Shown: piece after piece, positions 11,441 to 34,754 of the stretch
Layout: each line of letters opens with the position of its first letter
Position numbering within the stretch: the first letter of the stretch is position 1
The notes under the pieces: generated by a model
The model's input: the letters and a program-made list of their open reading frames with translations, nothing else
Database searches by the model: none
Told to the model about the DNA's origin: nothing
Program-made: the position numbers and the translations under genes
Source of the DNA: an uncultured Prevotellaceae bacterium
Lineage (GTDB): Bacteria > Bacteroidota > Bacteroidia > Bacteroidales > Bacteroidaceae
DNA length: 64,000 nucleotides
NCBI GenBank assembly: GCA_946188395.1
Contig: CAMHUU010000012.1
Coordinates: 1 to 64,000, forward strand
Direction: 5' to 3'

Positions 11441-11474
11441 CTTTGTTACCCGAAGTACGATTACTTCTGAATGA

Positions 11475-11622
11475 CTTGACCTTCGGTCGAGCTTGTTCAC
11501 GTTCGATAAAGCTAGAACGAGTTCTGCTTTATTCTCACTTAATCACAACTTGACCTTCGGTCGAGCTTGTTCACGTTCGATAAAGCCAGAACGAGTTCTG
11601 CTTTATTCTCACTTAATCACAA
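11475..11622. repeat. 74-bp tandem duplication containing a terminator hairpin and the last codons of the adjacent gene
   Basis: Copies 11475-11548 and 11549-11622 with one clear mismatch (aaagcTaga/aaagcCaga). Confidence 0.93.
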
Positions 11623-12229
11623 CCTTTTTACCGTCCTTAATGACTACACCCTTGTAGTTCTCAGAAACCTGCTGACCAGCGAGGTTGAAAGCGGCAGCGT
11701 TAGCCTTCTCGGCCTTAACGCCCTGGATGCCAGCGGTGCCGGTCTTGAACTCGAAGCCATAGAAGCCGAGCTTAGAACCTGCGCAGTAAACCTTGTAGGT
11801 CTTGTTGGCCTTGACGTTGAAAGTGTAAGTGCCATAGTACTTCTCGTCGACCTTGATACCGTTGAAATCCTCGAGAGCGGTGCCGTCTTCCTCAATATAG
11901 AAAGCCTTGTCGGCGTTCAGCACAACAGCAACAGTGATGTTACCATCGATAGAAGGAGTGAGCAGGTAGAAAGTACCATTCTCCTTGTTACCATTGGTGC
12001 CGTTACCGGGAGTGTAAGCAGCATAACCCTCAACCTGAGTGTCGGCCTGAGCTGCCTTGAAATCGTCGCCACCTTCACCGAAGACCAGCTTGCAGTTCTC
12101 TACACGCTTAGCCTTTGCCTGCTGTGTACCAGCAGCGATGGTCTCGCCCTCTTCCATGGCATACTTGCCCTGAGCGTTAACTGTCAAAGCCATTGCGGCT
12201 ACTGCAATAAGAGTAAAAATTTTCTTCAT
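11609..12229 (-). CDS. Small secreted protein with a T9SS-like C-terminus, possibly carbohydrate-binding
   Basis: MKKIFTLIAVAAMALTVNAQ start (12229); C-terminus FNLAGQQVSENYKGVVIKDGKKVVIK. Confidence 0.75.
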   Translation of the reverse strand: MKKIFTLIAVAAMALTVNAQGKYAMEEGETIAAGTQQAKAKRVENCKLVFGEGGDDFKAAQADTQVEGYAAYTPGNGTNGNKENGTFYLLTPSIDGNITVAVVLNADKAFYIEEDGTALEDFNGIKVDEKYYGTYTFNVKANKTYKVYCAGSKLGFYGFEFKTGTAGIQGVKAEKANAAAFNLAGQQVSENYKGVVIKDGKKVVIK

Positions 12230-33811: not shown

Positions 33812-34152
33812 ATATAGTAGTTTGTTAGTTTTGAACCAGCTGCAAAAGTACAAACTTTATTTGTAAACAAGGTCTCTAAAGCAAAAAATCTTCGAAAAAC
33901 CCGCAAAATTCAGAAAATCAGCCCTTGGCAATACGCGTATCGGCGTGTGAACCACACTATTTCCGTACCCGAATGTAAAGCCATGAACTGCGTCGTCCAG
34001 GCCATTTGCCGCACCAAGGATTCCTGGTGGAAGGTAAGCAAATTTTACTTAATACTAATAACACCAAAATGATTATGAAAGAATAATTCAATAAGTTCTA
34101 CTAAAAAACAAAGTATCTATCTGAAATATAGCATTTTACGTAAAAGTCTACC

Positions 34153-34218
34153 TCTACTTAAGTTCTACTTATCCTCTACTTTAGTTCTACCTAAGTTCTA
34201 CTAACCCTCTACATAACC
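34153..34218 (+). repeat. 11-bp iteron array (6 TCTAC units)
   Basis: TCTAC at 34153, 34164, 34175, 34186, 34197, 34208: exact 11-bp spacing. Confidence 0.93.
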
Positions 34219-34293
34219 TTTGTCATTCCTCTGTCGCCATCTGTGTGTGTTTAAGAGGAAGGTGATGACTACTGAGGCGGAGGCTGGCTTGAT

Positions 34294-34381
34294 GTTCCCA
34301 CCTTGGGACTAAATTGTTCCCACCTTGGGACTAAAACATTCCCAGCCTGGGACTAAAACGTTCCCAACGTGGGACTGTTTA
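34294..34381. repeat. 22-bp tandem palindromic repeat x4
   Basis: GTTCCCACCTTGGGACTAAAAC-type units at 34294, 34316, 34338, 34360; each has TCCCA...TGGGA dyad. Confidence 0.95.
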
Positions 34382-34459
34382 ATAAGCTACGAGTAAATCC
34401 AGTTAAAAGGCCTTGCCTGAAAACCTGCAGGGGAGTATCGGAGATAAAAAACGAATCAT

Positions 34460-34525
34460 CGTTTGGTAGAGTTAAGGTAGAACATAGGTAGAGGATAGGT
34501 AGGACTAAAGTAGAACTTAAATAGA
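34460..34525 (-). repeat. 11-bp iteron array, inverted relative to 34153-34218
   Basis: GTAGA-type motifs at 34466, 34477, 34488, 34499 (GTAGG), 34510, 34521 (ATAGA): exact 11-bp spacing. Confidence 0.93.
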
Positions 34526-34606
34526 GGTAAAAAGTTGGCGAATAATTTGCATAAGTCCCATAAAATCAGCATCTTTGCAAGCAAAATAACTAAAATTTAG
34601 TAGAAC

Positions 34607-34754
34607 ATGAAGATAAGTTTACTAAAATAATCGCGTAAGAAGGAGGTCATCAACCGTCTGGAGTTGTCGGAGCTTGCTGGACACTAATAGTAACACCAGC
34701 GGTAACTCCGGAGGCGGCGGCAACGACGACGACGACTTCGGAACGGGAGCGTAA
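34607..34754 (+). pseudogene. Decayed small Gly/Asp-rich peptide gene
   Basis: MKISLLK*SRKKEVINRLELSELAG then, after a frameshift, NSNTSGNSGGGGNDDDDFGTGA*. Confidence 0.5.

Follow-up and report, generated by a model that had tools for sequence, protein, structure and literature searches.

The window, i.e. the whole stretch of 64,000 nucleotides analysed here, carries two arrays of short repeats that face each other around a block of palindromes (Table 1). In the left array TCTAC starts at 34153, 34164, 34175, 34186, 34197 and 34208, with all six units exact and a constant step of 11 bp. The right array consists of the inverted units GTAGA (34466, 34477 and 34488), GTAGG (34499), GTAGA (34510) and ATAGA (34521), the fourth and the sixth departing by one base each. 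An earlier note on this DNA had described these twelve facing units, six per side, together with four central palindromes, and its coordinates are exact to the base. It had passed over the single TCTAC and GTAGA sites outside the arrays, a TCTAC out of phase at 34147, a promoter-like stretch and a degenerate gene beginning at 34607. That the arrangement lies far beyond chance is borne out by a search with a three-unit pattern allowing at most two mismatches, which gave eight matches where 0.11 are expected and never more than two in 100 dinucleotide shuffles. The stretch TTG ... TAnnTTTG is called promoter-like here by its resemblance to the Bacteroidetes promoter consensus. Elsewhere in the window (11474-11623), a 74-bp unit is duplicated in tandem with 98% identity.

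Table 1. Features of the putative control region and the adjoining gene remnant, in positions of the window.
Feature	Position	Strand	Remark
Solitary outer TCTAC, left	34097..34101	+	56 nt to array
AT-rich gap, left outer site to array	34102..34146	.	78% AT
TCTAC, out of phase with left array	34147		sequence reading
Left iteron array, six TCTAC units at 11 bp	34153..34212	+	pattern and shuffle test
Central block, four palindromes TTCCCANNNTGGGAC, 22 bp apart	34294..34376	.	22-bp-spaced repeats upstream of distant relatives too
Right iteron array, six units at 11 bp, two with one mismatch	34466..34525	-	
Promoter-like TTG ... TAnnTTTG, toward gene remnant	~34535..34579	+	same position in intact copies
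Solitary outer GTAGA, right	34600..34604	-	79 nt past last unit
BT4734/BF3469 primase-helicase gene remnant	34607..34687	+	codons 1-24 recognisable, stop at codon 8, rest lost

The ATG at the start of the remnant opens a degenerate frame that reads MKISLLK, a stop, SRKKEVINRLELSELAGH and a second stop, and is 83% identical to codons 1-24 of a primase-helicase. Since the gene survives only as this nonsense-containing remnant of 24 codons, the window copy is a relic; in all likelihood it has no function, or serves at most as a passive binding site. The source genome (111 contigs totalling 2.95 Mb; completeness 83%) holds two more full-length copies of the region, at C42:7756-8168 (73%) and C14:29161-29524 (76%), and has kept one intact primase-helicase gene (C27:1708-3822), which is accompanied by TCCAC iterons and a divergent HU-like ORF. 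Between the window and C42 copies the iteron cores are no better kept than the spacers (82% and 81%), which is consistent with decay.

The window region is one member of a dispersed repeat family, present in many sequence-diversified versions in rumen Prevotella chromosomes. Among 150 congeneric genomes, 23 were positive with a query of four exact units, while the reversed pattern, used as its control, was nearly silent; in many of the positive genomes both facing arrays are present, and wherever both were recognised in relatives they point inward. In intact relatives the array pair lies directly upstream of a primase-helicase gene and in many cases has a divergent HU-like gene beyond its other end; the order is array, promoter-like stretch, GTAGA site and start of a protein of ~705-735 aa. 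Ten of the 28 TCTAC-type pairs adjoin such a gene start at a distance of 93-162 bp, and two further pairs, one of them that of the window, retain a gene remnant. That no ORF explains the arrays, as the earlier note stated, holds for the window only in so far as its gene has shrunk to a remnant. The remaining 16 of the 28 pairs have no such gene within 3 kb or up to the contig end, so that a gene-independent role is possible. In pairwise comparison, the homology between full-length copies sets in ~550 nt upstream of the gene and runs through to the stop codon; the flanks differ outside this stretch. Phage and plasmid records yielded no relative at 60% identity or more, only more distant ones.

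The periodicity analysis covered 77 loci of named genomes, most of them belonging to Prevotella and Xylanibacter of the rumen; one locus (L274) is a run of N and was discounted, leaving 76 readable loci. The score at lag 11 exceeds the 99.9% shuffle level in 65 of the 77 loci (64 of 76 without the masked one); it reaches at least 25 of 33 in 54 loci, and does so in only 1-2 at lags 9, 10, 12 and 13. An inverted partner exceeding the shuffles accompanies the array in 63 of the readable loci. Unphased or single-sided arrays in relatives, or a spacing within chance, which the earlier note had named as grounds for dropping its reading, are thus not what was found. The iteron sequence itself differs widely between loci, and in TCTAC-type units about 9.7 bits reside in the five-base core and little in the spacer. 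Outer single sites occur on 50 of 56 sides among the TCTAC-type relatives, at 54-58, 65-68, 77-79 or 89-90 nt from the array. Their placement is helically phased relative to the arrays (R=0.91 at 11.35 bp, compared with a maximum of 0.50 in 2000 random sets), a statistic drawn from related and hence not fully independent copies. Together with the fixed 11-bp phase, this fits the earlier suggestion that a cooperatively binding protein would find every unit on the same side of the helix. The stretch from outer site to array is 72% AT, compared with 55% farther out; it lies outside each array, and the centre between the arrays is only mildly AT-rich (58%).

Repeats spaced at 22 bp are likewise found upstream of the Bacteroides finegoldii and Parabacteroides genes and in relatives that lack 11-bp arrays, although counts at lag 22 are inflated by a harmonic in loci having 11-bp arrays, and clear palindromes are present in only part of the 22-bp-spaced blocks of relatives. 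Stand-alone clusters of the palindrome TTCCCANNNTGGGA, spaced at 22 bp and without iteron arrays, were seen in genome G000 at C2:5940, C2:27163, C3:102931 and C14:62502.

The linked protein matches PF08800 and PF05272 in Pfam, i.e. a BT4734-like_N and a VapE-like helicase domain, and bears the name BT4734/BF3469 family protein in public records. Genes of this family are widespread among Bacteroidales of the gut and rumen, with no known function. The BT4734-like AEP family is attributed to Iyer et al. 2005 (as cited in PMC5862659), and in the literature that could be searched no iterons or control region are described for BT4734/BF3469 proteins. The top solved relative is the SaPI-type PriRep1/VapE (7pds, PriRep1 on dsDNA), with a profile E=1e-15 and a fold E=2e-16. 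Walker A and B, the Asn of motif C and both Arg residues are invariant in nearly all of 49 sequences. Motif I of the AEP primase, by contrast, reads E-x-N and not D-x-D/E in most of these members (residues 90-97 of the L118 protein in alignment A1), and primase activity is therefore doubtful.

Iteron distance rises with protein distance (Mantel rho 0.60, p=0.001). When the remainder of the protein is controlled for, it is the N-terminal 60 (r=0.50) and the C-terminal 55 residues (r=0.52) that show the strongest association with the iteron (p=0.0005). In the model of the protein (mean pLDDT 84 over its whole length) the C-terminal domain has the element order H-E-H-H-E-E, as in winged helices, and it is the third helix that co-varies; Foldseek with this domain alone placed winged-helix proteins near the top, none of them significant. 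Helices of the types M/I-N/S-N/S pair with (T/C)CTAC or TCCAC iterons, those of the types LN(D/N) with TACA(T/C), and those of the types LS(D/N)Q with GACAT. The iteron class expected from the helix class is observed in 72 of 77 loci, with five no-calls and no contradiction (shuffled mean 29.8, maximum 44), but these are not 77 independent events, because the helix classes correspond to clades and were drawn up with the data in view. We regard the co-variation of third helix and iteron as a strong lead, not as proof of recognition. The match holds at the level of classes only. In a set of 25 loci a code of single residues had seemed to fit (TCCAC with MNNH, CCTAC with NSY), but it breaks down in the larger set.

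The probable explanation of the region is that it represents an orphaned, bipartite iteron control region (origin/operator) of a BT4734/BF3469-type primase-helicase module, to which the module's own protein would have bound; this control region is probably replication-origin-like. In intact copies, the C-terminal winged helix of the primase-helicase would bind the 11-bp units, one subunit per unit and on a single face of the DNA, on both facing arrays, and the HU-like partner may bend the DNA. An SF3-type helicase ring could then load beside the arrays on AT-rich DNA and open it, as SaPI/PICI initiators do at double-iteron origins. With the outer single sites near two outward promoters, the protein may also repress its own gene and that of the HU-like protein. 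The replication site that the earlier note had offered among its options fits this picture, in that an initiator-type helicase adjoins and its putative recognition helix tracks the repeat.

Alternatively, the arrays could be a transcriptional operator and nothing more, through which the primase-helicase, or else the HU-like protein, controls two divergent promoters by repression or activation, without any origin function. Autoregulation would be natural between divergent genes, the outer single sites are near the gene start, and the promoter-like sequence on the gene side has a mirrored outer site opposite. Nevertheless, a simple operator would not be expected to have as many as nine phased sites per arm, the linked helicase is of the initiator type and has origin-binding relatives, and the 22-bp central repeats are retained across the family; we consider a pure operator unlikely.

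An origin-like control region finds its closest parallel in the SaPI/PICI origins with Pri-Rep, which likewise combine two sets of short iterons with an initiator primase-helicase of the same helicase family, each element having its own iteron. PICI origins always comprise two iteron sets, flanking AT-rich DNA (PMC6092414), and SaPI Rep binds iterons through its C-terminal domain (PMC7581432), a mode of recognition that is demonstrated for SaPI and that we infer for the Prevotella module. The origin of PICIs is located directly downstream of rep (PMC6092414; PMC7581432), whereas the Prevotella array pair is upstream of the gene. Moreover, the Prevotella units are strictly 11 bp long, their sets face each other around 22-bp-spaced repeats, the primase motif is altered, and the module is a chromosomal two-gene unit without int, xis, repressor or packaging genes. 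To our knowledge, no comparable paired arrays are known for phage NrS-1. Its primase-polymerase-helicase (6k9c) is similar in the fold of the helicase part but is a phage protein. SCCmec Cch2 (PMC7581432) is also a self-loading helicase of a chromosomal element, with a C-terminal domain that binds direct repeats beside the gene; it differs in belonging to another helicase subfamily, in having three repeats only, and in that its origin candidate is part of a recombinase-bearing cassette. The gene beside intact copies belongs to the BT4734/BF3469 family by both Pfam and public annotation, and this chromosomal family now stands beside the phage-satellite initiators. The strict iteron architecture and the readable match between helix and iteron offer a cheap and concrete handle on its function.

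The HU-like gene, found in 32 of the 77 loci, is the only strongly recurrent neighbour, and no integrase, transposase, repressor, packaging gene or defence partner recurs beside these loci. For the integration site proposed in the earlier note there is accordingly no support. Dispersed gene-less copies share ends ~80-100 nt outside the arrays. In genomes G120 and G095 the cores of such copies are 98-99% identical, compared with 82% for the spacers, which suggests constraint, with the reservation that the search for copies relied on these same cores. At two separate loci of G095 (L105 and L106), gene-less copies have the same junction immediately past the opening codons of the missing gene, as if spread had come after gene loss. 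It is possible, if doubtful, that rumen Prevotella chromosomes harbour a large family of integrase-free two-gene replicons (HU-like plus primase-helicase) that fire as small chromosomal origins, each version with a private iteron that is read through a simple recognition-helix code, and that gene-less origins shed by them persist and spread alone. At metG, which was matched in 26 other genomes, the element is absent from the 12 upstream regions examined, and no exact empty-site junction is readable because the left neighbour is not syntenic.

The common ends of the gene-less copies could also be taken to mean that a transposon or MITE has the two arrays as its terminal inverted repeats, with the units as transposase sites. 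Indeed, gene-less copies in G120 are located inside MITE-like units of ~590 bp with the terminal repeat CCCCAGTTCGGGATAAG next to TA (C24:38101-38685, i.e. L115 9102-9686, and further units on C25 and C18); some of these bear the array pair and one is only ~108 bp long. Such a reading fails, however, because the gene sits outside the array pair, and it also lacks a recurrent transposase alongside. Some G120 units with CCCCAGTTCGGGATAAG have no arrays, and with up to two mismatches this repeat is absent from the fetched loci of other genomes and from the full-length copy of G120 itself. We therefore hold a transposon origin of the arrays to be improbable, and the array pairs in the G120 units look like capture by an unrelated MITE.

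It is similarly improbable that the module is an anti-phage or anti-plasmid device recognising iteron-like origins of invaders, for which the array would act as control element or decoy. An arms race could explain why a genome holds several divergent copies and why specificity changes, and PADLOC finds the linked protein similar to CRISPR-associated PrimPol and, weakly, to an RT-associated VirE protein; yet defence partners do not recur beside the module, and viral contigs carry TCTAC arrays as scattered single matches only (31 stretches, nearly all consisting of one search window). Finally, it is extremely improbable that the two arms pair into a structured RNA, as the earlier note also suggested, or into a long hairpin: the arms are complementary at 72% over 69 nt and one A-form RNA turn is 11 bp, but the repeated core accounts for the complementarity, unit order between the arms is no better than shuffled (0.672 vs 0.667, sd 0.011), Rfam has no match for the region, and the iteron tracks a putative DNA-binding helix.

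Two features of the genomic surroundings may be added to the origin-like control region favoured here. Four copies with different iterons (L268, L273, L293 and L308) are located just downstream of dnaK and convergent with it, either as an old shared position or through a site preference. In several loci (L100, L089, L090 and L169), Parabacteroides included, a DUF6078 gene lies upstream of the primase-helicase gene.
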